From NCBI GenBank assembly GCA_903813345.2, contig CAIIXF020000006.1, positions 12,094,348 through 12,158,347 on the forward strand: 64,000 nt of DNA. Direction: 5' to 3'. Of this stretch, positions 28,661 to 50,928 are shown piece after piece; the first letter of the stretch is position 1; each line of letters starts with the position of its first letter. The notes below the pieces were generated by a model that saw only the letters and a program-made list of their open reading frames with translations, ran no database searches and was not told where the DNA came from. The stretch comes from Owenia fusiformis (lineage: Eukaryota > Annelida > Polychaeta > Sabellida > Oweniidae). The position numbers were made by a program, and so were the translations under genes.

Positions 28661-31600
28661 TCATGCCATCATATCATAGTCATCTCTCTGAAATCACAAT
28701 GAAATGTATGATATTACATGTCCTGGAGAAATACACTGGAAATACTAGAAATAAATATACTTAATGTTTACATCCAATGTAACAGCCATCAACTTCGCAT
28801 CAAAGATGGCATATGGGAAGTGTCGATTTTGATATTTTTTGTTTTCATCAAATTTAACTACGTTATAGTTGACATAATGTTTGTACAGACCAGTGAATGT
28901 GATGTAAGCAGATTGAATGTAGAATTTTACTTTATTGCCAATCACATACTCAGCAGTAAAGTAAGCAACTGCAAGTACTTTAACTGGTTGAGAGTTTCAA
29001 AATGTAAACAATCACAACAATAAGGGCATTTTTACAAAACAGCGCAACATTGGAGAAAGAAAGGATGCAATTTCCATACCAGTTCATTGTAGTCTAGGAC
29101 ATGTTTCCTAATGGCAGAAGTATCAGTCCAGGTGACAAAGTCTTCCATCATCCTACAAATATAAAGACATAATATTATTATGAATTCTGAGTAACAAGTC
29201 TCAGAAATTTCTCACAGCAGTGCTCTATGTTGAGGTTGAGTAGGAAATATAGAAATATAAAGTATGTAATGAACTTTGCACTGGTTGTTATACATTTATG
29301 ATGTAGACTAAATAGAATGAAAACAACTGCCATCTTTCTTAAAATAAATGAATGAATTCCAGAATTCAAACATGAACCATATCATGTAAAGATGAATCCC
29401 TGTTTTCCTGGTCTATGACATATCAACTGATAATTAAGTAAGTAAAACATGTTACCATGGTAACTAGTTTTGTAAAACATGTTACCTGGCGACTAAGTAA
29501 GTGAGACATTCTGCATGGTAGCAAGGTACACTTATATAAAATAGGTTACCCAGGTAAGTGAAATATGTTACCTGCTGACAAAGTGAGACATGCTATCTAG
29601 TAACTAGGTAAAGGACACATGTAACCATGGTAACTAGATTAGTGAAACATTTTACCTGGTGACTAGGTATGCTGGGTCTGTGACTGCCTCTGGACCTACT
29701 CTCACATCTACATATAGTTAAGGAAACAAACATCCATGTACTTTAATAACATAACACAAAATAATCCCATGGGAAGAACATTCTTTGTAAAATGCTCCCT
29801 TCACCCCTACAAGCAGGATTTGAAGTTTTAGTTGAAAAACAGAGTAAATTTGACATCTCATTTGTAATTGATTGTTCACATTTCATTTGTTTTGACTCTG
29901 TCCCCAACACATAGTGTTGTCACGTCATACTGTTAGCACTGGTGGGTCTGCCTTCCTGAATGGCTGACTATTATGTTCAAATGAATTCTTTAAAGTTGCT
30001 GCAGGTATCATCTTCAAATTTTCAGGAACATATTTGGTATATACTTGTTTTATAATATATGCAGTCATCTTTGCTTGATTCTTGCTTCCTCTTCACCATT
30101 GAAGCAGAATGCTTAAATCCTTGTCTGCAAGAAAATGCTTCAGAATATTCAAATTTCAGAACTACTGTATTTAGGTTTTACGCAGTCTGACCCAACTGCA
30201 GAAACCACTTTGAATATCTATTGAAAAGTCAATGTTACATCAGTATTTATCATACTAACGATGAATTGAGTTTTCATAATAATGCTCTTTCGCTGAATTC
30301 TAAAATTTTAGGATGGTAATCTAGAAATTAAAATTGAGGCATCCTGGGTTATTTTTTTAAGGTTTGAATACCTGCCGTAAAATCTAGTCTGTTCAGTCTT
30401 GTCTTTTTCCAGTTATGTAATTTGTTTGTTTGCCTTGCACCCTTATACTTTTGGTTTTTGACTAGACACAAAACACAGAATAGTCTTTCCAAGGCCTAAC
30501 TTGCAATCAATCACCCAACATTATGAGCATTTCTTTAATTAATCCACAATCCATTCATTATTCACATCAAAGAAAATCCACATATTTACAACACTTATCT
30601 TTACAGTAAATTCCTAGATAAATTACAGATTTCTAAAATAGAAGATGTATTTGATTTTCAAAATGCATCTTCCAACAATCAATCAGAAAAATGTTTGAGA
30701 AGTCAGTTAATTCAAAGGATACGGCCCTGTTCTATAAATGTCACAGCTGCTTTCAAATTTTCTGCCATATGACTCCGTACCATTACAACTGGCAACCGCC
30801 GTCTGCAAAATGAAATGCATTATGGGTAAACAAGTCAAGATCTTAAGTAAAGATAAAAGGAACTTACAAATGTAATAGAGCATATTGACATAAAAAGTGT
30901 GTAACTAATTTAAAATAGAAAAATATCTCGAATCAAACAAAAATTAGTTAGCAGAGGCTTTTAATATTTTAAGGTTGTAGTAGCATATGTGTTATTTGGC
31001 AGATTACTTTTCTACTCTGGCAACCGTATACACTGTTACTTTAAAAGTTGAAATTATCAAAAAACTGTTTAATTAGAATATACATAAATGTGTATTTGAC
31101 AATGGACAATTAATAAAATTCTTTGAAAGAGACAATTTACACATACATACAATATGACCTACATTTTGAGAAATAAAGGTCAGGGTGACCCAATTTTTAT
31201 ATTTCATGCTTAAAATATGTTAAATATCTGGAAGGCTAAATCTTAGAGTCATTTGTTCTTTCTTTTTTCAGATTTTGTATAGACTGGACCAAGGAAATAA
31301 AATTCTTTTTTTCTAGTCTTAAGAATGCAGATTTTGTTATTTCAGGCACATAATCAGAGGATGTTATGACAGGCTTCAATAGATGAGTTTTTTGCTATGT
31401 TTCTTGAAGTTATTAAAGTTAAAAATGGCTGCCCTTGATTACATAATGATTAATTATCACATAGTGAGAGAATAGTCTTTGAAATACTAGATAAAGGTCA
31501 AGCTCCCTCCTCAAATATCTCTGTTCAGTCTCTTGTAAAAATGAGCGTTTAGCCCATCCAGGGCCTAAAAATTCAGAAAATCGGCAGAAACCCGTATCAC

Positions 31601-34600
31601 GACAAATATACTCTGGTTCAATACATGTACACTACTGCATAAAAGAGCCTATGTTAGATCGACAATGGCGCTATTTTTTACCTATGATCTAACATGGTTA
31701 TACTTAAACATTATTCTAATATGGTATGGTGAGATCTAAAAAATGTTTTGGCTATTAAATTTCACTGTCAATACAAGCAAAAAGCTATAAATGATGTAAT
31801 CTTGTAAAAGGTCAATTAAAATTACACTATCTTATGGTGGGGAAGGGATATTATAACTTTAAAACTTTTTATTGACATAAGTATCATAACATGATTACAT
31901 TAGTCAGAACCAGAACAACGGCAACGCCAAAGCGTAGCGAATCCCATCGAACAGAAATGGCTGGCATTTTTACAAACGAAATATATAGCAAATATCATAA
32001 AACAACACACCAGAAAGGCCACCATTTTCAAAATGGTTAGCCAAGTTGTCATCAGAAGAAATAATATGCTTTTAGTAGCCACCTATAAAATTTTTGAAAA
32101 ATCGCACACATGTACTTGTGAAATAAGTAAAAAATGTAAAAATGACAGCCATTTTTTAAAATGGCCTCCTACTATCTGAAGTGTCATGAGACAGTGTGCA
32201 AGGCTCGTGAGTATTCACATATCAAATATGAACAAAATCGCTTCACTACTTTTCAAGTTATAGTAAAAACGTAAAAATGGTGGTCATTTTTCAAAATGGC
32301 CGCCTACTACCCAAAGTGTCATTAGACAGTGTGCCATGCTTATAGTATTCACATATAAAATATGAAACATACCAAATATGAACAAAATCGCTGAACTACT
32401 TTTCAAGTTATAGTAAAAACGTAAAAATGGTGGTCATTTTTCAAAATGGCCGCCTACTACCCAAAGTGTCATTAGACAGTGTGCCATGCTTATAGTATTC
32501 ACATATAAAATATGAAACATACCAAATATGAACAAAATTGCTGAACTACTTTTCGAGTTATAGTAAAATACGTTAAAATGGCAGCCATTTTTCAAAATGG
32601 CCACCTTTTACCAAAGGTGTCATTAGACAATGTGACATGCTTATAGTACTCACATACCAAATATGAACAAAATTGCTTCACTACTTTTCGAGTTATTGTA
32701 AAATACGTTAAAATGGCGGCCATTTTTCAAAATTTTTTCAAAATGGCTGCCTTCTACCAAAAGTGTCATAGGACAGTGTGCCATGCTTATAGTATTCACA
32801 TACCAAATATGAACAAAATTGCTTCCCTACTTTTCGAGTTATAGTAAAATACGTTAAAATGGCGGCCATTTTTCAAAATGGCCGCTTTCTACCAAAAGTG
32901 TCATAGGACAGTGTGCCATGCTTATAGTATTCACATACCAAATATGAACAAAATCGCTCCACTACTTTTCGAGTTATAGTAAAATATGTTAAAATGGCGG
33001 CCATTTTTCAAAATTTTTTTCAAAATGGCCACCTTCTACCAAAAGTGTCATAGGACAGTGTGCCATGCTTATAGTATTCACATACCAAATATGAACAAAA
33101 TCGCTCCACTACTTTTCGAGTTACAGCAAAAATCGTAAAATAACGAGTAAAGGCCGCCATTTTTCAAGATGGCTGCCATGTGCTTTTTTAATATCTACAT
33201 TTGCAGCTTTATTAATGTCCTTTATAATTTTTTTACACTTAAAACATATTGCTATTACAGTTTTACATATTGTACCTAAATTACTGTAAAATCGGCACTA
33301 AAATGGCCGCCATTTTGAAATGAGCGGCCATTTTGAAAATCGGCTTTCGAGCAGAACTTCTACCCCCATAGGGTATATGTGTACAAAATATGAACAAAAT
33401 CGGGCCAACGGTATTTGAGTTATTGCCCGGACGGACGGACGGACGTACGTACGGACGGACGGACGGACGGACGGACGGAGGCGTTCCCTATATCCCTCCG
33501 AACTTTGTTCGATGGGATAATTATGGTAAACTACATATCAACTACACTAAAAAATACAAAAATATATAAAAATATATATATAATATATATATAATATATT
33601 TCTGCTTATTGGTCATGTGCATCTTCTTCTATAATAGTGTGGTGCACACACAATGCATTAAGAGCATTATGCTTGTTATACACAAAAATGTGTATTATAA
33701 TTGCAACAAATTTTTCTGTTACATGTTTTTCTAACGGGAGAATATATTCATGAATATTGCAAGTTAAATACTTATACCAGAATATGAGGAATCTTGTCTA
33801 TTAAAATTATCAGTAAATCTTCAAAAACACTTGTGAGTCATCTCTAAGTGTGCCGAAAGTGTGGTTGGTGAGGAGCCACTTATTCAGTAGAACTCCCAGT
33901 GATTAAGATTTACATATTATTTAGACCATGCTGACGGGTGGAGGGAGAGAGGTGAAGTGGGGGGTTCCAGATATGTAATTTACACATTTCTGCTTATTGG
34001 TCATGTGCATCTTCTTTGTGTGAATAATGTGCCTACTAGGGTACCATCCGCCTTATTTGTATCTTTCACCAGATGTTTGAAATAAATAGCACAGGACTTC
34101 ATTCTGTGTTTTCATTAACCAACGAATCAAATCATGGATAAATGAAGTAGAATAGCAGAAATTGACTCAACCTGCATCAGTTCAAAAGTATAATCTGGAA
34201 TTTATATTTCATGTGGAACTGAATACACCCTTAGAAACAAATCCGAAGTCTACATGAGAAAGGTGCTATAGGACAGCGTTATCTACTTTTGGACAGCGTT
34301 ATCTACTTTTGCTAATATTTTGCCAGAACTTAACCTCTACTAGAAAGAAGACATTTCCATTGATAAAATGAAGTGGGGAGATAATTCTCTGATAACCCAT
34401 CCCTAGTTTCTATCTTTATACTCTTCAATACATAAACATACATCATTTTCCATTCAGAAAGTATAGAGGGTACAGGGGTTTCAGTGGCGTAGCCAGGATT
34501 TGTCAGGGGGGGGGGTTCTAATATTTTCTGCCAAATTTGCCAAATGTGCTTAAATTTTGCCAAATTTGCTTAAGTTTTGCCAAATTTGCTTAAATTTTGC

Positions 34601-37600
34601 CAAATTTGCTTAAATTTTGCCAAATTTGCTTAAATTTTGTCAAATTTGTTTCAATTTTACCAAATTTGCTTAAATCTTGCCAAATTTGCTTAAATTTTGC
34701 CAAATTTGCTTAAATTTTGCCAAATTTGCTGAAATTTTGCCAAATTTGCTTAAATTTTGCCAAATTTGCAGAAATTCTGCCAAATTTGCTGTATGTTTGC
34801 CAATTTACCTCAATTTTGCCAAATTCGCTTAAATTTTGCAAAGTTTTCTTAATTTTGGTCTAATTTAATTAATTTTTGACAAGTTTCTAAAATTTTACTT
34901 AGGTTTTGCCAATTTTACTTAAATGCCAATAATGGATAAATTTTGGCAAAGTTTCATTGTTGCCAAATTTTCATAATTTTGGCCCATTCGCTAAAATTTA
35001 AAATTTTACCAAATTTTCTCAAGTTTACCAAATCTCAAAAAATAGGTAAAATATCCCAAGACCAAGTTCATTTATTTGGGCAGATTTTTAAAAATTTGGA
35101 CCCAACATACCACAAATTCACAGAAATTAGCAGACATAGAACCCCCTCCTCCCAATTTTCAATCGCTTGTACAACGAGCTTTATAAATAAATAGGAGCCA
35201 AAAATCAGTAAACAACTCTGTGTGAGTGATCTTTATACTTGCTCTCTGATCTAACTACAGCATGAAAAAATAAGAACGTTGTAAGTAAGAATTTTCTAGC
35301 GTTCACAATTTTGGTGCATCACGGCCCAGTGTCACTTTACATTCACATGTTCAAAATTCTCTGCTGATTTATATCAAAAATTAGACCATTTTGACGTTAT
35401 GTACAACAATCAGATAATTTCAACTTTGTAGGTATGCTTTATTTGTGCATTTGCATTCATTTTGAAGATATTACTTCAGTATTTCAGGCCTAAAGTGCAA
35501 AGAGCATACCTATTATCGCCCATTATTGATTAGAAGTTTTTTGTTTTTCTGTTTTTTTTAAATCTTTTTTACTCAAAATGAAGCTATAAATCTCACATAT
35601 TTCCATCTTGACATATAACTCAATTGTCTTTGGGTAATCAAAAACGATAAATTATTGAAAGACTGCAAAAATTTTACTCAAAGTTTGGAGGTTTGCATAA
35701 TTGCCAGAAAGGGTGGGTTCGAATTTTTTTTAGGCAAGATTTGGGGGGGGGGGGGGTTCGCACGAGCCCTACGAACCCCCTCTCCCTACGGCCCTGGGTT
35801 TGCGCCAAAGTGTATGTATAAAGGCTAGTAAAAATATGATAAAAGAAATTCATGGACACCCAGTAGGTTTCCCAAAGAATTCATCTCTATGGAAATTCTA
35901 CCTTGGGTATTGCCTGGAGTTTTTATACCAATTTCTACATGTTATTTATTTTGTTAACTGCAAGACCTCCCTTTATAACAAAGTGCCCCTTGCAAAAGTG
36001 AATATTTTTCTAAAAAATAAGGTACTCTACAAATGATTCAACCACCCTCTAATAAAACTCATAACAATTATTGCAATAGCGAAACATGTGAGACATTGTC
36101 TTACCTGCAGAATGATGAAGCTGTCACCTTGTCAGCCAGTTCCAGACTGCTCTTGGTGGGTGCCAGTCCCATAGAATGTCTAAAATAAACAAATGGAATC
36201 ATCAACCAGGAATAGCAGGTATAAATTCAAGGATATACAAGTTTGAATATATATACCTGTACGTATATTTAATCACTATTTTCTCCAAGTTGCTGGTGCT
36301 TGAATACTTTGACAACTTGAGGAATGAAGGTCAATGTCAGTTAAAGGTCAAATATTTAGATATCAAGATTTAGATTAATGAGGATCAATGGAATCATCCA
36401 GTAAAATGATTATATTAGAGAGGACTAAAACTGAGTAATTATATTTGTATTTAGGAGCCATTAAGCCCCAACATATTAATTAGTCACGAGAGGTCAATTT
36501 AAGGTGAGGGTCAATGTTTGATTTTAAGTCATAGAATGGTAAAGGTGTGGTCTGGTAAGGGGCAGGATGTGGTGCATATCAAGGTGTGGGGAAGGCCAAG
36601 CTTTGGTAAAGGTCATAGAATGGTTAAGGTGTGGTGTGGTACTAGGGGCAGGGCATGGTGCATGCCAAAGTGTAGTAAAGTGTGGTAAGGGGCCGGGTGT
36701 GGCGCATGTCAAAGTGTGGAGAAGACCAAGATTTGGTAAAGGTGTGGTATGGTAAGGGGCAGGGCGTGGTGCATGTCAAGGTGTGGGGAAGGCCAAGCTT
36801 TGGCAAAGGTCATAGAATGGTTAAGGTGTGGTGTGGTACTAGGGGCAGGGCATGGTGCATGTCAAAGTGTAGTAAAGTGTGGTAAGGGGCCTGGTGTGGC
36901 GCATGTCAAAGTGTGGAGAAGACCAAGATTTGGTAAAGGTGTGGTATGGTAAGGGGCAGGATGTGGTGCATATCAAGGTGTGGGGAAGGCCAAGCTTTGG
37001 TAAAGGTCATAGAATGGTTAAGGTGTGGTGTGGTACTAGGGGCAGGGCATGGTCCATGCCAAAGTGTAGTCAAGTGTGGTAAGGGGCCGGGTGTGGCGCA
37101 TGTCAAAGTGTGGAGAAGACCAAGATTTGGTAAAGGCGTGGTATGGTAAGGGGCAGGGCGTGGTGCATGTCAAGGTGTGGGGAAGGCCAAGATTTGGTAA
37201 AGGTCATAGAATGGTTAAGGTGTGATGTGGTAAGGGGCAGGGCATGGTGCATGTCAAGGTGTGGGGAAGGCCAAGCTTTGGTAAAGGTCATAGAATGGTT
37301 AAGGTGTGGTGTTGTAAGGGGCAGGGTGTGGTGCATGTCAAAGTGTAGTTAGTAAAGGCCAAGGTGTGGTGAAGCTCAAGGTTAGGTTAAGGTGTGGCAA
37401 AGGTCAAACTGTGGTTAAGGCCAAGGTGTGGTGAATGACAAGATAAGATGAAGGCCAAGATGTGTTGAAAACCAAGCTCTGGTAAAGATAAGATAAAGGG
37501 GACAGTCAAGGTCACAAGGTGTGGTAAAGGCCAAGTGATAACTTTATGTTAAAGTTTATTGAAATCTCTGAGACTTAAAGAAATCAGCTGTGAATTGTCT

Positions 37601-40600
37601 TAACTAGAATACATGTATAACGATTACTGTCATGTATGGCTGATGTGTAGACAAAACATCAGGTGAGAGTTTTACCTGAAGATCTCAGGTATTATTACAT
37701 TATACCTGTTGAGAACTAGTGCTCACTTGGAATGAACGATACTGTTAATTATCATGCATCAAATTACATTTTATCATTTCTTTATTTTTGTGATTTATGT
37801 GAGTTTGTCAGGTTTCAAGTATATATATGTATTTGTGTTGATATGTGGGTGTCCTGATAATTAAAGCTGGAGATCAAAGGAATTTCCAGGTAACATATTT
37901 TTACCTGTGGACATAGATCCTGACAAGGGTCTCACCTGTACAGAGGCACATGTGGCCTCATCATGTCAGATAGATGCAACAGATTTTTAAAACATCTTGG
38001 ATTTTTCTTAAAATTGCCTCAATGACTCGTGTAATGAGAAATTAACTTATAAATATGTTTTTTGCCATTCAGTATAACTTCCATATAGTTTTCATATTCT
38101 AAAATTTCATTCAAGTTTCTAACTTACGTGTTTCTGAATCTTGAATATGTAAGCCTTAAAAATCATATTTATCTATTCTCCCCTCATTATATATAGTACA
38201 ATTTTGAAAAGTAAAATTATGGGAGCATTTTGAGCAAAAAATCTATTTGGAAACTTGATGTGATAATTGAGTAGAGGTATTTCCTGGGTTCACTTTACAC
38301 CAGAGCTAAAATTATATTCTTTTTTGTTTCTTAGAATCCAATTACTAAAAGATACAGACACAACAGGTGTACCTTGAACACAATTTCAAAATTTTCACAA
38401 ATCTTACAAATGCGAAGATTCTGCTGACCTTTGACAAGGAAACCTTTGCTAGTAGCTTCTCATAGTCATTTCAGATTTTATGAATGGAACCTTTACACAA
38501 GTAATATATATTCCTCATTTTTGCTTTTATCACATCTTCTGTTGCTAAGCAATGGGGGAAATGGAAGAACTGAAATTAGAAAAAAGTGTTTTTGAGTGTT
38601 GAGGAATTATTTTCAAGTTCTTAATGTTTGATACAGCCCCTATCATTCTCCTCATATGGGTATTGTACATATGTCACATTTGACATGACCCCTGAGTTGT
38701 TAAACTGGTTTAAAATGCCTTGTGTTACATGTACTTTGCATGTGTGGACCATATTTCACAATTGTTCAACAACCGTTCACTATTATCATACCTGGTTAGA
38801 ATCTATTCTGATCTACATTCGCAGTGATTCTACCTAATTTCTTATTCTATTTCTACAGTTTATTTGCACCGAGAGCATATATATGAAAATATACTGATTA
38901 CTCAAATTAGATACTAGTACAGTAAATCCTGTTTCTTCAATAATTTCTCTCATCTGATCACATCTCAATATGAACACTTTTTGGTCCCATTTTTAAATCT
39001 GCTACAGATAACCACGTTAAGGTAGAACTTAACTGTCAAATTGCAGCATGGTGCAATCAATTAAAGTGCTGGCTTTTAAATTTTCAAACCCTGAGAGTGG
39101 GTTCGAAACCTGGTAGAATCAGTTTCTAATTCATTCTTCAACCGTCTACAATACATTTTCTTGATCTCTCTTTATATGACACACTCATTTTGATCTACTT
39201 TTGTATTCCCATAGAATAATAATCACAATTTTTGGGAAAAAATTAAAAAACGAATTTTTTATTATAACATTTCTTTTAGAAATAACTAAATGGCCAATCT
39301 TTCTAATTTTCACATATTTTGTTACATATCACCTCGATATCAGTATATCTTTCACCTAGATTTTTTCAGGAAATCTGAATTATAGAAAAATAGGACCCAC
39401 GGTCCTGTGCTCACACAGTTTGGAACCTTCAGAGGAATGTATATCCTGACTTTAAAACAAAAATATTGATTTGGATTTGTAGTCTCGAACTTTGAGAAAT
39501 AAACTTTGATAGAACAGTTGTGTGACCTAGTTTGATGACCTTTGACCTTGAAAATTTTACTTATTCAGAGCTCAGTAAGGTCTTTTGTGATTAAGCTGAC
39601 CAAAATTAACATCCAAAAATCAATTTGAAAATTCAACTTTTTTGACCTTTCGAAGGTCACTGAAGGTCAAGTAAATGTCAAATCCTAAAACTAATGTCAG
39701 AATTGAGCTCCTGGCAACTTGTAGATGATTTTCAAAAAAAAAGTTGGTCAAATTGAAGCAAGTTGAAAAATAACTTATTTTTACTGTTTTTTGACGTCAA
39801 ATATCTCAAAAACTGTAAAAATTTGATGCTGACATATATTGAGCAATATGTAGGGACGGAATGCTTAAATCTAGTAATGATGTAATTCATTGCAAGAAAT
39901 GATCAAGTATAAGGCAAACTTTGAGAAACTTGTCAATCACAAAACCTGCCATTGACTTTATACATGAGAAAGTTTCCTGAAATGATATCTAAGTCCTACT
40001 TTTTGTCAAATTTTATAGAGTAAACACCAAAAACTGTAATTCCAAGAGCTTTGAAATCTTCAGAGGACATAAGTTGCATATACAGCAACTACTTAAAGTT
40101 ATTTGAAAGTTCTACTTCAACAAAGTGTCTAGTATTTACAGAAAATTTGACTTTTTGACGTCAAAATCCGCAATTTCTCGGAAACCGGGCAAACTTGGGA
40201 AATGGCGATGATAGGTCAAAAAATAGGCATTCTGGATATGTAAAAAATGAATGTGGATATGACTCAATCCGAATAGCAGTTTTAATTTGTGCGGCCAATG
40301 TTGATGGACGGACGGACGGACCAACGGACGGACGCCTGGTCGATCCCATAGGCTCACTGTGTGAGCCAAAAAATCAATCGAAAGTGATAAAGGGCCAGGG
40401 ATAAATATCTCCTGCAATGCATCGCGTCAACAATGACAAATTTTCATTGGTCCTTCGATTAATACCAAATTGTCCCAATCTTAAAACTGGTTTGCATATT
40501 GTCAGGACAATAAAGTTATATCATATCAAGTTACAACCTTCACAATTGATACAAGTCAAATAAACATCAAATCAAAACACACATGAAAAAGCTTTGCAGT

Positions 40601-43600
40601 TTGTCTTGAGGACAGATATTTTTTATTGATAGCACAAATATATGTGAAGAAGAATGTCAAATAAACCTGAAATGGTGCATTCAAAATCAGACCCTGTATA
40701 TTTCAAAGGGAAAGAAGAACCCAGATGTAAAAAATCTGTACCCCAAATGAGAGCTCTTCAACACAGGAGGTAAGAAAATTGCTGCAATGCTAAACTATCG
40801 TGTATTAGTCTATTAAATTGAGGTCACAAATTGATGCCAAATGTTTGTGTTTTGTATTTGTTTTTCCCTTGCTTACAAGAAAAATTTTCCTAATGGGAAA
40901 CAAAGAATTCAAGGTCAATGGCCTGAACCAAGTTAATGAGGTCAAAATGTACTTTATGAGATGCAAATATCAAGGTTTTTGGTTTATATATCAAGGTTTT
41001 TGGTTAAAATGACCTATATATTACCAGTTACTACCCTTTGCATTCGTTTGAATTAGCATTGTTTTCAATTCACTCTCCCAAGTTTAAGAGAAACCTAATT
41101 GAGCCAATCATAACTTGTCGTCGCCAGGAGGACAATAAGGTAGTTTCTAAATAGCTGAATAAAGCTGAATAAATAGGTTTCACTATTGGCATTTTTTGGG
41201 TTTGGGCCAGACAGCCATTCACTTCAATGTTAAAAGCTTGCAATAGTCACTTTATTTCATGATTTATCAAAAAGTGATGGTTGAATCTGTCTTAAACTTG
41301 AATGGCATACTATGGAATGACTATGTTGATGTTCATATTGTGATAAATTATGACCATTTTAGGTTTATAAACCAAGGATTTAAAGAATTTCACCATGCAT
41401 CAATGAAGATTTGGCCCAAGCTTTTTTAGACAAGGCATTAACATGACAAAATGTCACCACCTAGTTGCTCACAATATTATGAGTCCAATCTTCAGATTTG
41501 AATTTCTGAGAACTTGTAGATGATTTTGAAAAAATAAACTGGTCAATTTGAAGCAAGTTGAAAAGAGACCTTTTGACCCTAAGAAGGTCATTGAAAGGTG
41601 AAATCTCAAATCTAAAGTCAGATCTGAACTTCTAGAACTTGAAGATAATTTTGAAAGAAAATTGGTCAAAGATGCAAAAGCAAGATGAAAAGAGACCTTT
41701 TTGACTTTGAGAAGGTCATTGAAGGTCAAATCTTTTTTGACCTTGAGAATGTCATTGAAGTCATTGTCATTGTGTTTCGAGAACTTGTAGATGATTCTGA
41801 AAAAAAGAATTGGTCAATTTGAAGCAAGTTGAAAAAATACCTTTTTGACCTTTTAACCTTTTTTGACCATGAAGGTCAAATCTTACAAATAAAGTCAGAT
41901 TTGAACTTTTGAAAACTGATGATTTTGAAAAAAATTGAAGTCAGTCTAAACAGTATTTGTTAAGGTGACATTAAAGTTCCGGCAAACAAAATGGGGAACA
42001 TGAAATATTTAGAATTCACAATGGTTTGAGCTTTATTATACTCTAACAATGCAAGAAGTGCACATTTTCATGCTCGAGCTCCTTCGTTGTTCCTGGGAAA
42101 GGTAAGATGATTTGTGGAAATTTTGGACTCTTGCAAATATGTGACTGTTGCAAGGCTACTCCTTGAAACTTTGAAATTAGCCTCACTTCACACTCTTCAT
42201 GCTAGCTTTGGGGATCCATGCACCTCCAATTCATGTGTTTATGTGTGATGTTAACTTTTACATGTTTCTTTAGTCAAGATATACAATTCATATACAAGGT
42301 AAACAGATTTTAAAAACATGTGTCTTTATCAAAAAAATATGGCAGTCATTCTTTGTACTTTTTATTTAATTTAGCTTCGCCTTGGCCTTAAGTTACTGGA
42401 AGTTGTGAGAATTTGTTGCAGACACCAATCACCGATCGCCAACCACCAATCTTTTAAATATTTCTATTGTAATTTTTTTATTGTTGGATGTACATTTGGC
42501 CCTATTAGGGCATCAGTACAAATAAATCCTTTTATATATACATACTGCATGCTACATTTAGAGACAGAAATCAAACCATAAAGCTTAAAATTTCCACTTC
42601 ACATAATTTGGTTATTTTTGGGTTATTTCTACAAGGGATCCGATTTGAGAGAAAATATGTCAAATAGTTACAGATAACACTGACTATATATAAACTTTTA
42701 GAAAATATATTGATTCTGTGGAGAATTCCACAGAGATTGACCAAAATAGTTGATTCTGCAATTCTGCGGGCAAAGGCAAATTCCGTCCGTGCTCTGCAAA
42801 CATGGAATCCCGGGGCAGAGGTTCAAAATTATGCTTAGGGTACAGATTACAGATCATTCTACAAATATGATAAAGGACCGTGTTTGGACCATGTCCATTT
42901 TCTCGTTATTCACCAATAGTATGCTATTTAATGTGAAAGTTACCAAAAGTTGAAAGAACATATAGACAGCAAATACTAGAAATAGTATCTTGACAAATAA
43001 ATCAATGAAACTACACTTCCGATTATCATAAAAAAGTCCAGGTGAGGTTAACTATAGGTTCTCATAGGCATATATCCCAGAGAAATTCCCAATAGGAGAA
43101 ATGGTGCAAGTTTCCTATGAAAGGATTTGGTTCAACAGGTAAATCACCAAAAAGGAGAGCTGTAATATTTCTTTGAGTTTGCGAAGACAGAGCACATTTT
43201 AACTTTTTTCAAAATGCCAATGCTTCCTATTATGTAACACATTAATTGAAATGAGAACATCTGACAGCAAGAAGCAAAATAAATCTACATTAGTGTTAAG
43301 TTGCAGCTGTTTATGAAAGGCAACAGATCAGGCGTGTTTCCACTGATTGTAAAGTATCGTAAAACGACAACAAACAAAACTGTTCCAGTGAATGATATCT
43401 CGTCAAAGACTGTTCAAATTATGATATATCAAACTCTATTTTTCCAAATTCAAAGAGCATGATAGCACTACCTTCATAAAACCAATCAGCATCGCTACAA
43501 ACCCCTAATAAACATATCTCATGAATAAAATAAAACATGGATGTAAAGTGACAGCCAAATGAGGCTCCCCGTCTGTTCGATTCAGGTGTGCTAATCATAA

Positions 43601-46600
43601 TAGGTAATCTACTGACGTGAGCCAAGCGTGTGTCTGGCTGAGAAGAAAACATATCTTATAAAAAAATTCAACAACCATCAATTCCTTAACTTAATATACC
43701 AAATATAGCAAAATCACTTAAGGAGAAGAGTATGAAGTTTGATATATGAATGACAAAAGTATCATGTTATTAGGTACCCTATGCAAACATTCAAAGGTCA
43801 CAATGGCTTACAGAATCACTTTTTGGAAGGTGTACCTCAGAGAGCAGGTAAAACAGAAGCACGCGACTTGTTCAGCTTATCTCTACAGAGGAGCCGTCAG
43901 ATAACACAGCAAGGTAACAAAAAGCTTAACCATTATTTGGAAACTATCTTTTTTCAAGTTTGATTTGTTTTTTACATAATAAGTGATTTCAAATCAAAAA
44001 CAAACTCGGACATAAAAAACTACTTTTGAAACAAGTGACAGATTTTTGATTTTCACTTATACAAAAATTGCAAAAATGAAATTTATTTTTTTATAAAAGG
44101 ATAAAAATGTCGAAATAATACTTTTTTTATTAGAGGATATTTTGAGGGATTCTTCTTTATCTATCAATGGATTATAATTATACATGTGTAACGCGTGAGT
44201 AAATGGGAAGACTGGTAGATATAAGGACAAATCAAGAAATATAATATCACAAGAAAATCAAAAATCAACGTATCATTTTTATTATTCTATTATTAGCTTT
44301 TTAAAGATGTTAATTTAAGAGCAAAAAAGGCTCCAAAACTTAATGAAATATGTAGTTTGGATGTTCATTTATGTCTGTGGATTATATTTTATACCACAAA
44401 CACTTTATAAATACCTGAAATTTGCAATAAAAGTGCCCAAAAATTGTTGTTTCGAAATTCCCCATTTTTCCTGTATCGCGCTAGTCATGTGACCATTACG
44501 CGTAGCAGGCAATGTACATATATTACAGTACATATAATATGTTCAATATGGCAAACATCAGCGATTCTGATTCCCGGGTTCTGGGAGATGGCTATATAAA
44601 TCAGCGAGAGGATGTAATTTGAATGAAGACAATTTAAGGAGGGGAAATGTGTGCAAGTATGGCAGTAAGAGAGCAGATATGGGGACTTTAGACAAGAACT
44701 ATGACGGAGAATCAACTAAAAATGTGAGTTCTGGAATGAAGACCTGTTGCCATTGACTGAAGATTCCAGCGATCCTATTATCATACTCAGTTTGAATCTA
44801 GACGCGGAAAACAGATAATGTAAACAGGTTTTCTGCAAAGTTATCAAATTTAGAAAATATGGATCTTGTTTTTGAGTGGCTTAACAAGCATTTAGATACA
44901 AGACTTGGCGCTATCTCTTGTCAAATACATGCACTGGACTTGCAGTAAATTGGCCATTGCAAATTGCAAAATCAGATCGTCAAATTAATCGCTTCGTTTT
45001 TAAACCTACGCTTCATATCTTCTTCCAAAACTTTAGGATTCGATAGAGATAAGTTATAACTTGTACAGGAAAAAAATGGCAGATCCTACCTTAATTTAGA
45101 ATCGCTGATTTCTCTGGACAAATTCCGAGAAGAAATTGTTCAACATCGCGATCACCTCAGACAGCGTGTCACTCTGAACTCACGTGATAAAATACGGCAT
45201 CTTGATTGGTTACTACTCGTGTTGTCATGACGCGAAAAGCAGTAGTAAACACTGAATATGTTAATGAACTGCCATACATGGAACAATTGTCTTTCTGATT
45301 GGTTAACTTTACACGCGTCCTAAATGAATATAGTAGTCGTAGTAAATGATTCATTGATAACTCTGAAAGTGGGCGTGACCAGCTTCATTTTGACACCAAA
45401 TTCAAGATGTTTCAAATCAAAATGGCCTCGCAAGACGAGGTTGAAATATCAGCAATTTGATACTGATATGGTCTACGATAGATCAAAATTGCCTGCCCCG
45501 CGTCACATGTCACGTGAGCCTTTATTTGTTGAAAAGTGAAAGAGATAGTGACACTTTTTAATCTTAAGTTTATACCAATATTACAAACAGATATCTATTT
45601 TTTCATTATATATTTATTTCTTCATTATACATACATTTGTTTTATACTACATTGATTTATTTTTGCAAAACCTTTGCTATTAGATCTTTAATAAAAATTC
45701 TTTAAGACATCAGTACAAATACAATGCCAGAATGATTTTCAACATAAAAGCAAAGAACTGGAAAGAGAAACCAAATATTTCTTCTCATCTTTTGATATTT
45801 GATTTAATTTGAGTCTTCTCTAATATAATTTATACAACTGTATCTTACAATCTATAAAAAACACATGTAATCTAAAAAACTATATCAATAGTATAAAATT
45901 TATACATATCACGATTCACACTAAAAATGCCAAAATGAAAGGATAAAAGGCACTTTTTGCATATTTGAATAGGATTCATACCATTTTTTTTCAAATGTGC
46001 ATGTAGGTAATTGAAGGGATTTTAAAGTATAAATATATATATATGTATACTGTTGGAAAGTGGGAGATGGAGGGGGATGTGTCAGTCTGACAAAGTAAAT
46101 TTAATTTTGAGAGAGGATCTCAAATATCAATTGTTTTGTCAACATGGATTTTTGTAATATCTATGAAAAACTTATTTATTTTGAGATTATTTTGGTTTGT
46201 TATGATCAAAGCAAGGGGCACTTGACTTAAAACAAAAGACACGTAGGATTTGATCCTGTATATTATTTTTGTCACCTAATCTCATGTAGAATATACTTAC
46301 AATTTTTCTAATAGTTGCGAAGTTGCTTCAGTCCTGAATGGATCTTTAACATCTATCTCCTTAATTTTTCTGCTAAGCTCTCGTATGTGACGGGAAAGTT
46401 TGTTATATCTGAAAAAATAAAACACAAGAGAATGATTAAAGTGAAAATCAGTGAGGAAAAAGGCTTAAAATTCAGCATACATTGCCAATCAGAAATTTAC
46501 AGGCTTCTACAAGCTAATTAGTAAAATATGCAACAAGGATGCATTGGCGAAGCACTGGGACCACAGGAACAGGATGGTGACATGTACATGTAGTCCAGAT

Positions 46601-49600
46601 GACTAGATGTTGATTATAAGGTGCCCTGTAAATTTCACAATGATGTTATTCAAGTCTTAAGATCAACGGGAAGTTATCATACATAAAAAACATGTACCCT
46701 TTGTTTTTTATAACAAAATAATAAAAAGCTTAAGCTTTTACTTATTTGCTCACTGCAGGGGCGTAGATAGGATCTGATTAAAACTCGAGCAGAGCTTTGA
46801 ATGACAGCTCTATAAGATCCTATTGTTTCTAGTTTTTAAAACAAATGTGTGAACTAAATCTAGTACAAGCTACAGGGAAACAAATGTGTTTTATATGGAG
46901 AATCAAGTATTTCAAAGATGACTGGGTAAAAGAGACAAAGGTGAATACTCATAAGACACATAGAGCCTGTACTGTTGTAATTTCTGCTTCAGGAACGTAC
47001 ACCAAGCACCCATCGTTTCAGTTTAATTTGACTGGTATCTGGTATGAGTAAATCTGTAAGTTATCAAATGTTTCTTTGTCGATCAGAACTTGTCTTTTAA
47101 TATCCCCGAGTTGACATTTTCTTGTGAGAAATCAAAATGGTGGTTTTGAATTGATGGAAATTTAGGAAGTAGCATTTGAAATTTCCAGTGATTTCAGTTC
47201 CGAAACTTAAGCCATTTCAGTAGTAGATCTTGGATCTGCAAAATACACTCTGTCACTGTGCATGCGCAAAACAAATATGTACGAAAAATATTTCTGTTTT
47301 TTATGTTATACCAAATTATCTCTTATAGATGCACACACTTCAATAATTGCACACACGACTTTTCCAAGAGAGACTGGTAACTTGAAAAACAAAAGTCAAG
47401 AAAAAATACAATTTAATCGAGCAGGCGATAATAGACTTAATATTGAATAATTCACTTACCGTTATTGATAGAGCCATTTTTGTGCATAAGGCTGTTACAG
47501 ACGTGTCTCCGGAATATTAAGAACTATAACTATGTTCATGATAACCTTTAAGTAATGAGTTGAAATCTATAATGAAAGTCAATTATGACCCGTCGCCACT
47601 CGCCATTACTAAACACTCGCAGTCATTTGAGACATCTCCTTCAGGAGAATTTTGTAAACACACTGTGTGTTTATTGGAGAGAATACGGTATCTTGTATTT
47701 TTTGTAAAGGCCAAGATGACATTTATTGCAAGAAATTAGAGATTTTTGCCTTTTATGCAACATTATGCGCTCGTGACGTGTATGGATTATGCAGACCAGG
47801 GTAAATTATGCACCATTGTGCTTTGGGCGCATAATCACATAAAACTGAGGGGACAAAAAATTTGTCCGCACTCCGCAGTCTTTGACTTAAGGTGCTATGG
47901 AAGTTAACAGGAAATGACAAAACAGGAAGTGACAAATTTTTTTGCATTTTTAGACATTTTTTGAACAAAGATAACAGAGTTGTGTTTTGACCTCCAGTCG
48001 ATTCAACTAGTTCCAAATACCATTTACAGGTCCAGGATCACAATGTGCATGGTCAGAATGACCCTAAACATGATGAAATAACCTTTTTAGCCCTTTGAAA
48101 GTGTGACTGATAAAGAAGCTAAAAGTAGGAGCTTGGGAAGGTCACTGAACAGAATGTTTTGAATTTTTCAGAAAATGTGCCCAACATAATGCTCCAACTG
48201 ATACAATCTTTGAAATTTTAGAAAATTGTCTTAAACAAAAATGACAGTCATCATTTTTTTCATTTTTTTTATTTTTCCATGAATGATATCAAATTTTCAA
48301 AGATTGTATCATTTAGAGCAATATATTGGGCACATTTTCTGAAAAATTCAAAAGATTCTGTTCAGTGACCTCTCCTACTTTTAGCTATTTTTCAGTCACA
48401 TTTTCATAGGGCTGAAAACGTTATTTCATCATGTTTAGGGTCATTCTGACCATGAACATTGTGATCCTGGACCTGTAAATGGTATTTGGAACTAGTTGAA
48501 TTGACAGCAGGTCAAAACAGAACTCTGTTATCTTTGTTCAAAAAATGTCTAAAAATGCAAAATAAATTGTCACTTCCTGTTTTGTCATTTCCTGTTAAGT
48601 TCCATAGCACCTTAAGTTTGACATGGGGAAATATACCGTGCTCACCATAAATAAATGGAATCTTGATTTTCTATCACCATTCCCAGACCATGGTGATTTG
48701 AGACTTCATACTTCCCAATAATGTCTAGATAACACATCCCTTAGTTGTCAGGCCTGTCAACTTTGGAACACCTAACATGAGTGACTTACAAATGTTGAAT
48801 ACCTTTATTCAAACTGTGCACACCTTGGTCCAAATCTGAACACCTTGGCCCACAATTTGAACACCTTGGTTCAAATTCTATTGTATATAACCAAAATTTT
48901 TTGGGGGGGTTTAGGTACGAAATATATCTGTGATATATACAGTAGATCTATCCGCGTGAAAAGACTGTTTTGAGGCTGTATTTTTTTGCTTGAAAATACT
49001 CAGGTAAAATGCGTATTCAACCCAAAAAAAATTTCTATCAAATGCGTGACAAATATTCAAATTGCGGGATAGTTGGATGGCTAGTCCAACAACATTAGAC
49101 CTAGCCCGGGCCTCGTTTCTTATCTGACATGTGATATGGCCCGGCTAGGTCTAACCTCCATGACCATTTTGCCTTTGATGCGTTAATTTAATCGTTCAGC
49201 AGGTTTCGACAAGCGGAACTAATTGAACCCTGAAAACATGGCAATATTACACAAAGAATGTGATTCAAGCATGCATACATACCTTATAAACACATACACC
49301 CCGTCCCGTATCCCCCTTAGACCCTATTGATGCATAATTACGAAAATATTGGAGACAGGTTTGGAATATGACGAAAATGTCGGTCAGTTTCGGTAACATC
49401 GAAATTGCAAATCGTTTCAGGAATTAACCGTCATCACGGCACTGCATTAACGAACAGTTGGTTTGCAATTAATAACTATTTTGCATGTATATACGCGCTA
49501 TATAAATTAATCAAAGATACCTGTTATCCTCAAAATTGATCTTTTTATCCCGAGTAATCGCGATAATAATTATCAATCTATTTGACAACAATTTCGTTTC

Positions 49601-50928
49601 GCTGGTAGTTTAATTTTACGATCCGGGACACTCAGACGAACAGACACAATGACAGACATGCGGAAATGTCACTTTAGAGATTGGTAAGTGTAGCCTCATT
49701 TTACTCGTATAAATGAACATTTAACACAATAATATTGTGTTAAATCGCTTGATGTTATGTGTTTTTATATTATTGTCAAGTATCAGTTGCACGTTATCGC
49801 GGAAAAATGGTTTCGATGGATTCAGAACTTGCATCAAAGGAAAGAATAGTAAGGAGGTTAAACTCAATAATGGCCACAAGAAAATTCCTAATAATAAAGA
49901 ACGCCATTATTGAGTTTAACGACGTTGAACTAGATCTATTGGATGGCCTGAGTTTTGTATATTTTACATTTTGTTTTTTGATTTTCCAATCATGTGACGT
50001 GCATGGCGCAAGACAAGAACCAATCTCGTCAATTAAGCTGAGACTATATAGATTTTCCCGCCGCAGTGATATGAAGACTAGTACTGCCAAGGTTTACTCT
50101 ACCGAGCTGACAGAAGTCAGCTCTGGGAAGTTGGATGTATGTGAACTTGAAAAGAATAAATCGAGCCCATTTTGACTAAACGCTGTACTGAGTAGCGTTT
50201 ATAATACGCTATATATTTGAATCAATACATAATTTATTTGTTGTTACCTTATTTTGTTCCTTCAACAGTCTGTTGTTGTAGTAAATCAATGTTCTTGTAG
50301 ACAACAAAACTTTTGAATTTAGATTCCAGCCATTTTAGGTCACGCGAGATCTCGTGACTTTCGAAAGTAAAAATTTGCTACAAAATAACTCGCGCTAGCT
50401 AAATATGATATAGTCACGTGATCTCTCAGCGGTAATACCCATGCGCATAAAAGTACAATGCGCATGTGAACGCATGCGTAAAAAGTTAAAAAATGGTGCG
50501 CGCCAGATTTGGAATTTCTCCATTTTAACTGCAATTACACAAGAAGTAGGACTTATTGTCACCACGCGTGATGAAAAGGGCAAGTTACATTCAATTATCT
50601 TCTTAAATACCGTTTCTTATTCCAGCGCGCCTGCTGGAAGTTGGAGAAAACCGCTTCACAGGACGGTATATTCTAACGGTGCTTCAGCTGGCTTTTGAGC
50701 CAGCTGTGTTCAGTAAGCCAAGGTTATAAATATATTTACAAACATGGGAAAAAAATATTTACAAAAAATAAAATCACAAAATCGAACTCACTTCGTGTAG
50801 TCTTCCCTCTTTTGTATGTAGTATTTTTTCATCACTTTTAACTCATGCAGATTGTTATCAACTTCCCATGATATAAAATCAACCTTTTTGAGCAGTTTCT
50901 TCTCGTGAAACTTGAGTTTACGGACCAT
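28661..50928 (-). CDS. IMP3: U3 small nucleolar ribonucleoprotein IMP3, seven exons
   Basis: CDS complement(join(28661..28687, 29080..29152, 29656..29707, 30723..30802, 36105..36179, 46301..46408, 50792..50928)), 183 residues; human IMP3 is about 184. All six introns are GT-AG and every join is in frame. Exon 1: [18 protein letters not shown] to REDYT; exon 2: [15 protein letters not shown]; exon 3: [20 protein letters not shown]; exons 3/4: [20 protein letters not shown]; exon 5: [17 protein letters not shown]; exon 6: [20 protein letters not shown]; exon 7: RDDYDMMA. The segment from GLAPTK to VGPEAV is the S4-like RNA-binding domain. IMP3 works with IMP4 and MPP10 to pair U3 snoRNA with pre-rRNA in the nucleolar SSU processome, needed for 18S rRNA. 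The gene spans 22 kb because of repeat-rich introns. Confidence 0.95.
29434..29670. repeat. 27-30-bp minisatellite overlapping the donor of IMP3 exon 5
   Basis: About eight degenerate units of the type GTGAAACATGTTACCTGGTGACTAGGTAA (plus strand, consensus in part) run up to and include the 3' end of exon 5 and its donor (29655/29656). On the minus strand several units carry donor-like CAG/GTAACATG, for example at 29485/29486 and 29571/29572. Confidence 0.75.
32150..33180. repeat. Tandem repeat, unit about 130-150 bp, 7-8 copies
   Basis: Each unit contains CATTTTTCAAAATGGCCGCC, TACCAAAAGTGTCAT, GACAGTGTGCCATGCTTATA, CACATACCAAATATGAAC and CTACTTTTCGAGTTATAGTA. Two adjacent units (starting about 32281 and 32431) are practically identical at 150 bp spacing; others are 135-146 bp apart. 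Confidence 0.85.
33427..33480. repeat. (CGGA)n microsatellite
   Basis: About 13 tetranucleotide units of CGGA/CGTA. Shorter versions of the same motif occur at 15970-15995 and 40305-40333, each near the right end of a repeat element. Confidence 0.9.
34481..35796. mobile_element. Probable non-autonomous element with CAGTGGCGTAGCCAGG terminus
   Basis: The left end CAGTGGCGTAGCCAGGATTT with a poly-G run (about 34505-34515), and on the right a poly-G run (35742-35755) followed by ACCCCCTCTCCCTACGGCCC (reverse complement starts GGGCCGTAGGGAG). Such GGCGTAGCCAGG termini occur in many invertebrate hAT-like non-autonomous elements. Whether both ends belong to one insertion is inference. It contains a 20-bp tandem repeat. 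Confidence 0.4.
34520..35040. repeat. 20-bp tandem repeat (GCCAAATTTGCTTAAATTTT)
   Basis: More than a dozen nearly perfect 20-bp units from about 34535 to 34800, then progressively diverged units to about 35040. It lies in intron 3 of IMP3. Confidence 0.9.
36530..37510. repeat. Higher-order minisatellite, 197-bp period
   Basis: G-rich units built on AAGGTGTGG and GGTAAGGGGCAGGG. Equivalent positions (for example 36749, 36946 and 37143) repeat at exactly 197 bp, each built from shorter variant units. Open frames run through it on both strands because the period and composition avoid stops; they are not genes. It lies in intron 2 of IMP3. Confidence 0.9.
39046..39122 (+). repeat. tRNA-like SINE fragment
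   Basis: An A-box-like TGGTGCAATCAATTAAAGTG is followed by a canonical B box GGTTCGAAACC (39101-39111). The spacing is tRNA-like, but there is no proper acceptor stem pairing, so it is called a SINE head and not a tRNA gene. It lies in intron 2 of IMP3. Confidence 0.45.
39391..40367. mobile_element. Possible inverted-repeat element with CGGACGG run (family member 3)
   Basis: GTGCTCACACAGT (about 39408) is mirrored by ACTGTGTGAGCC ending at 40367, and a CGGACGG run lies just inside the right end as in the elements at 15270 and 31903. The interior has GACCTTTGACCTTGAA and GGTCACTGAAGGTCAAG blocks related to the repeat family at 26519 and 41431. The boundaries are approximate. Confidence 0.4.
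41431..42450. repeat. Interspersed repeat with GGTCATTGAAGGTCAAATC units (copy 2)
   Basis: It starts ACAAGGCATTAACATGACAA and runs through several degenerate GACCTT...GGTCATTGAAGGTCAAATC units. It ends near CACCGATCGCCAACCACC, matching the start and end of copy 1 (26519-26905). It is longer than copy 1 because a segment at about 41960-42390 interrupts it. Confidence 0.6.
42460..46300. other. IMP3 intron 2, right part
   Basis: No further exon is supported. AT-rich sequence with scattered short open frames, none with recognisable protein features. Confidence 0.4.
47886..48616. mobile_element. Long-arm foldback element flanked by TTAA
   Basis: CTTAAGGTGCTATGGAAGTT (47886-) is mirrored by AACTTCCATAGCACCTTAAG read in reverse at the right end (to 48616, with AGTTCCATAGCACC on the plus strand). 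The arms are several hundred bases: TTTGTCATTTCCTGTTAA, GTCATTCTGACCATG and AGTGACCT... blocks pair across the element. TTAA stands at both ends (47887-47890, 48612-48615), as in piggyBac-type insertion, though only the flanks support that. No coding sequence. It lies in intron 1 of IMP3. Confidence 0.75.
49857..49920. repeat. Perfect 18-bp inverted repeat, 28-base loop
   Basis: GTTAAACTCAATAATGGC at 49857-49874 and GCCATTATTGAGTTTAAC at 49903-49920 pair perfectly. They sit inside a 138-codon open frame (49759-50175) of unknown meaning. The arms are TA-poor and not part of any repeat recognised here. Confidence 0.85.

Follow-up and report, generated by a model that had tools for sequence, protein, structure and literature searches.

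IMP3 is a protein of the U3 snoRNP, and its gene is an essential one that serves ribosome assembly. The window, by which we mean the whole 64,000-nt stretch of Owenia fusiformis DNA analysed here, carries on its minus strand a complete IMP3 gene whose seven exons assemble into an uninterrupted coding sequence of 183 aa. Exons 4-6 match IMP3 of human (E 3e-30) and of yeast (E 2e-25), and the last bases of exon 5 together with the first of exon 6 encode YLVTR, which is the same in yeast IMP3 and reads FLVTR in human. No second copy of the IMP3 exons was found in the 498-Mb genome (525 contigs), and thus no duplicate that could make mis-splicing of this one tolerable; the gene is apparently single-copy here. 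Its exons, and the introns on either side of exon 5, are laid out as follows.

28662..50928, minus strand: IMP3 coding gene, whole (assembled coding sequence and protein matches)
50928-50792, minus strand: exon 1 (assembled coding sequence)
46408-46301, minus strand: exon 2 (assembled coding sequence)
36179-36105, minus strand: exon 3 (assembled coding sequence)
30802-30723, minus strand: exon 4 (assembled coding sequence)
29708..30722, minus strand: intron 4, 1015 nt, with U12-type signals (donor GTATCCTTTG at 30722, branch motif TTCCTTAAC at 29724-29716, end GTAG/)
29656..29707, minus strand: exon 5, coding, 52 nt, of which the final 14 (29656-29669) open the array
29648..29655, minus strand: true exon 5 donor, CAG/GTAAAATG, with its GT at 29655 (U1 pairing -8.3 kcal/mol)
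29153..29655, minus strand: intron 5, 503 nt, U2-type, acceptor TTTGTAG/GATG (assembled coding sequence)
29152-29080, minus strand: exon 6 (assembled coding sequence)
28687-28662, minus strand: exon 7, which as cut stops short of the complete stop TGA (assembled coding sequence)

Intron 4 combines a donor of the RTATCCTT type with a TTCCTTRAC-type branch motif near the acceptor; its 3' end reads TTTCCTTAACTATATGTAG, and the AG, ending at 29708, lies close behind the branch motif. The genome also holds U12 and U6atac RNA genes that score over the Rfam cut-offs, as expected where a minor spliceosome is present. Given these signals and genes, exon 5 has, on sequence grounds, a minor intron before it and a major one after it, and is defined between the two. 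The remaining IMP3 introns look U2-type, and a literature search on minor-intron genes found no paper naming IMP3. Introns 2 and 3 contain larger tandem arrays, at 36537-37346 (197/84/67-bp periods), 32126-33140 (135/150-bp periods) and 34536-34896 (20-bp periods).

Exon 5 ends in TAC CTA GTC ACC AG, after which the intron opens with GTAAAATG. From this boundary a series of nine degenerate units, each 25-32 nt long, runs along the transcribed strand from 29669 down to about 29417, a span that corrects the 29434-29670 given by an earlier, sequence-only reading of the locus. The real end of exon 5 (its last 14 nt) and the true donor form unit 0 (U0), and the units group into three trimers (T1 to T3), defined by repeat spacings and unit identities.

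29586..29669, minus strand: trimer T1, units U0, U1 and U2
29669-29643, minus strand: U0 (in T1), exon end and true donor
29642-29611, minus strand: U1 (in T1), palindrome, ATG/GTTACATG (GT site 29625)
29610-29586, minus strand: U2 (in T1), TACCTAGTTACTAG/AT, donor lost
29500..29585, minus strand: trimer T2, units U3, U4 and U5
29585-29561, minus strand: U3 (in T2), decoy donor CAG/GTAACATA at 29571
29560-29531, minus strand: U4 (in T2), TGG/GTAACC at 29549
29530-29500, minus strand: U5 (in T2), without GT at the donor position
29416..29499, minus strand: trimer T3, units U6, U7 and U8
29499-29473, minus strand: U6 (in T3), decoy donor CAG/GTAACATG at 29485
29472-29441, minus strand: U7 (in T3), ATG/GTAACATG at 29455, with the perfect palindrome GTTACCATGGTAAC
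29440 to about 29416, minus strand: U8 (in T3), without GT at the donor position

Identity is high between units six apart (U0-U6 23/27; U1-U7 26/31) and the repeat spacings are 84-86 and 170 nt, so the best reading of the array is a three-by-three structure in which a trimer of about 85 nt is present three times. CAG/GTAA would then recur in every third unit (29655, 29571 and 29485) because each such unit heads one trimer copy. The trimers are 72-76% alike, or about 0.3 substitutions per site between the 85-nt copies; alignment of T2 to the other two needs several gaps, and TRF alone reports 2.4 copies at 73% (29600-29669). Copies this divergent are not alike enough for the unequal exchange of a homogeneous minisatellite. 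As the array appears old and decayed, active repeat expansion is unlikely.

To compare the exon end with the array, we used a 14-column profile made from the intronic units only; U1 and U7 carry a one-base insert, which was put aside by hand. Among the 127,974 14-mers of the window, both strands included, the one that closes exon 5 gave the top score. An ungapped search, which needs no hand choice about the insert, found 12/14 matches to the exon-end 14-mer at only two places in the window, 29610 and 29499, both in register with the array. The true donor ranks 11th among 452 AGGT sites for self-copies within 240 nt, the higher-ranked sites lying in or beside tandem arrays. Of the 192 synonymous codings of YLVT, just 4, counting the real one, fit the units at least as closely as it does; therefore, the match extends to bases left free by the protein sequence. 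Local alignment of exon 5 to the array without regard to register is another matter: it scores 20, which 36% of window 52-mers reach, and is by itself not significant. We dropped it as proof, and the case for likeness thus rests on the register. The failed alignment is what one would expect if an unrelated intronic tandem repeat resembled the exon end by chance, but chance would also have to place the exon end above all other profile scores, set the only two 12/14 matches in register and extend the similarity through the donor into the intron, as between U0 and U6. We consider this highly improbable.

These results bear directly on the sequence-only reading, which had placed the true donor at 29655 and had described the units as containing the end of exon 5 and its donor. 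The assembled gene agrees on the donor (exon 5 at 29707-29656, GT at 29655, next exon from 29152), and the exon's last 14 nt and donor do align in register with the units. Its derivation of the array from the exon 5/intron boundary likewise stands; its picture of a lively, expanding minisatellite is not supported, given how far the copies have diverged.

The array has no relatives elsewhere. Both the 301-nt array and its 27-nt unit (3 mismatches allowed) match this locus alone in the 498 Mb searched, and a donor-centred 20-mer, again with 3 mismatches, has fewer genome matches than the same 20-mer reversed as a control (157 vs 264), which rules out a dispersed repeat family as the source. The palindrome of U7, GTTACCATGGTAAC, is by sequence a candidate motif, being similar to an RFX X-box. 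A canonical form, GTTGCCATGGCAAC, fits the restricted X-box consensus GYTRYY N1-3 RRHRAC, and the RFX targets given with that consensus include GTTACC half-sites (PMC2375033). Such X-box-like palindromes are over-represented in the genome about 100-fold or more (GTTACCATGGTAAC, 404 sites vs 4 for the reversed control; GTTGCCATGGCAAC, 438 vs 1), and at least five GTTGCCATGGCAAC sites stand at an exact 1044-bp spacing at G000:C2:20937153-20941342, suggesting a tandem array with an X-box in its unit. The seven exact GTTACCATGGTAAC sites examined elsewhere are solo and share no flanks with one another or with the array, so the palindrome is not the mark of a mobile element. The genome-wide excess, with one perfect copy in U7 and a near copy in U1, might suggest that the array grew from, or was kept as, a cluster of RFX sites, the exon likeness being secondary. 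Yet the palindrome occurs in only two of nine units, its solo sites elsewhere lack the array's flanks, and the match of the exon end to the array holds in register over 14 bases. As U1 and U7 are paralogous, the palindrome probably arose once in the array and was then copied with its block, and an RFX origin seems very unlikely.

The genome's own U1 genes start with ATACTTACCTG. With this 5' end, duplex energies are -8.3 kcal/mol for the true donor and -8.0 for each of the sites at 29571 and 29485, putative cryptic donors that are thus on a par with it for U1 pairing. Weaker sites follow at 29549 (-6.2), 29455 (-5.0) and 29625 (-2.6). Scored with a generic donor matrix, the true site reaches 6.5 and each of the two decoys 7.05, which is not a meaningful difference. 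Among the eight intronic units, then, two have the full CAG/GTAA, two a weaker GT and one a very poor GT, and three lack GT at the donor position. CAGGTAA is found twice in the 246-nt array vs twice in 21.5 kb of other IMP3 intron sequence, where the density of sites matching the decoys in quality is 0.70/kb. Retention of the core in U0, U3 and U6 is within chance (P = 0.066), and selection on the decoy cores is not supported. The U1 genes themselves form a tandem array of at least 34 copies among those listed, mostly with a 750-bp period (G000:C9:23745153-23771556), and further U1 genes lie on C1, C2, C5 and C9.

Splicing from any downstream donor would read ACC AGG TAA, that is, R and then an immediate stop, giving a 151-residue product with two exon junctions still downstream of the stop. 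The decoys lie 84 and 170 nt past the true donor and share its acceptor, and the exon 5 forms that they would make, 136 and 222 nt, are of ordinary length. The sequence-only reading had foreseen the run into TAA, and the assembled coding sequence confirms it. The same reading had seen CAG/GTAACATG in several units and a row of competing donors; that motif is exact only at 29485, the others being CAG/GTAACATA (29571), ATG/GTAACATG (29455) and TGG/GTAACC (29549). Thus, two copies do match the true donor in U1 pairing and in the generic matrix, but a row overstates a set in which the other intronic units offer only two weaker sites and one very poor one.

Which donor should be used? Where equal-strength donors compete and the flanking introns are long, human data and minigenes show a preference for the donor that lies closest to the acceptor on the other side of the exon; when the minigene donors are both strong, under exon definition, the upstream one is used exclusively, and shorter exons are favoured (PMC9225289). 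Exon 5, at 52 nt, is flanked by introns of 1015 nt and 503 nt, and the true donor is the one nearest to the acceptor across it; by analogy it most likely dominates and wins nearly always, although the human exon-definition rule may not transfer to this animal or to an exon behind a U12-type intron. RNA structure does not appear to hide the decoys: the predicted fold is ordinary (z -0.85), with U0 and U3 equally open (unpaired 0.23-0.25) and U6 somewhat less so (0.11). With the nearest-across-exon rule, folding without effect and core retention within chance, we take the decoys for relics.

Two possible uses of the copies have to be set against this. Regulated or steady use of 29571 or 29485 could yield unproductive IMP3 mRNA and so tune IMP3 dose. 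In favour of this, the two decoys have U1 pairing equal to that of the true donor, an intact core, an immediate stop and exon forms of ordinary length. Such useful competition is nevertheless improbable, as the cores are not kept beyond chance, predicted RNA structure gives the decoys no advantage, and both the nearest-across-exon rule and the preference for shorter exons favour the true donor (PMC9225289). The copies could instead remain unspliced and serve as extra U1 landing sites that define exon 5. A helper role of this kind is conceivable because removal of a minor intron is reported to be aided by U1 bound at the donor downstream of it (PMC8034651), and intron 4 has U12 donor and branch motifs. 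Against it, the true donor alone is enough in principle, and the decoys lie 84 and 170 nt further off; we judge it very unlikely. More broadly, that the copied donors have been kept as a working device, whether a poison-donor switch that sets the IMP3 level by nonsense-mediated decay or a U1 docking array supporting a 52-nt minor/major exon, is unlikely.

The minisatellite of human IFI6 is built of numerous 12-nt units. It lies at an exon end and gives multiple splice donors (Turri et al. 1995, cited in PMC4526556), two of its units being described as donors in mRNA (PMC4526556). By analogy this is the closest precedent for the IMP3 array, which would be of a kind already known in a different gene. 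In both, a tandem repeat sits at the end of a coding exon and carries donor-like units, the downstream ones of which could act as alternative 5' splice sites. The IMP3 array likewise begins at the exon end and includes the donor, with 14 exon nucleotides and the donor in register, but its units are only in part donor-like (two of eight with full CAG/GTAA, three with a weaker GT, three with none). In addition, where IFI6 has many 12-nt units with two in use, IMP3 has nine decayed units of about 28 nt, two of them with putative decoy donors. Tandem duplication of AGGT-bearing exon segments is also a recognised route of intron gain (PMC3443670; also PMC2891723). As in that process, a coding segment with AG/GT has been tandemly copied, leaving splice-site copies in intron DNA. 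However, the copy did not become the acceptor: intron 5 ends at 29153 with TTTGTAG/GATG, outside the array, which therefore appears to decorate an intron and not to have made one. Finally, like the competing 5' splice sites of equal strength in PMC9225289, the IMP3 locus offers several equal donors to the same acceptor across the exon, whereas the donors in that study were both used or tested and the IMP3 decoys are sequence predictions. The mechanism proposed for the IMP3 array is an ordinary one.

Collectively, we think it probable that the array is what remains of a local tandem duplication at the boundary of exon 5 and intron 5, whose copies drifted while the true donor dominated, with no function needed. 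The sequence shows a stretch of about 28 nt over the exon end and donor to have been tandemly duplicated; copying presumably ran from exon to intron because the YLVTR/LVTR protein sequence is ancient, being shared with yeast and human, and gene conversion back into synonymous sites of the exon is possible. A run of three units would then have been duplicated as a block of about 85 nt into three trimers and nine units, the best reading of the identities, after which the copies would have drifted as ordinary intron DNA. Two of them, at the same place in the later trimers, retain CAG/GTAA as putative cryptic donors. Being the nearest of the three to the acceptor on the far side of the exon, the true donor would most likely be chosen almost every time, and occasional use of a decoy would bring a stop one codon later. 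Since this stop precedes two further exon junctions, the mRNA would probably be removed by nonsense-mediated decay.

The locus is a natural experiment on how donors are chosen: three of them, alike in core and near-equal in U1 pairing, share one acceptor in a gene intolerant of mis-splicing. Silent decoys would support the nearest-across-exon rule for an exon of the minor/major kind and beyond vertebrates; decoys in use would mean that repeat copying had made a poison-donor switch.
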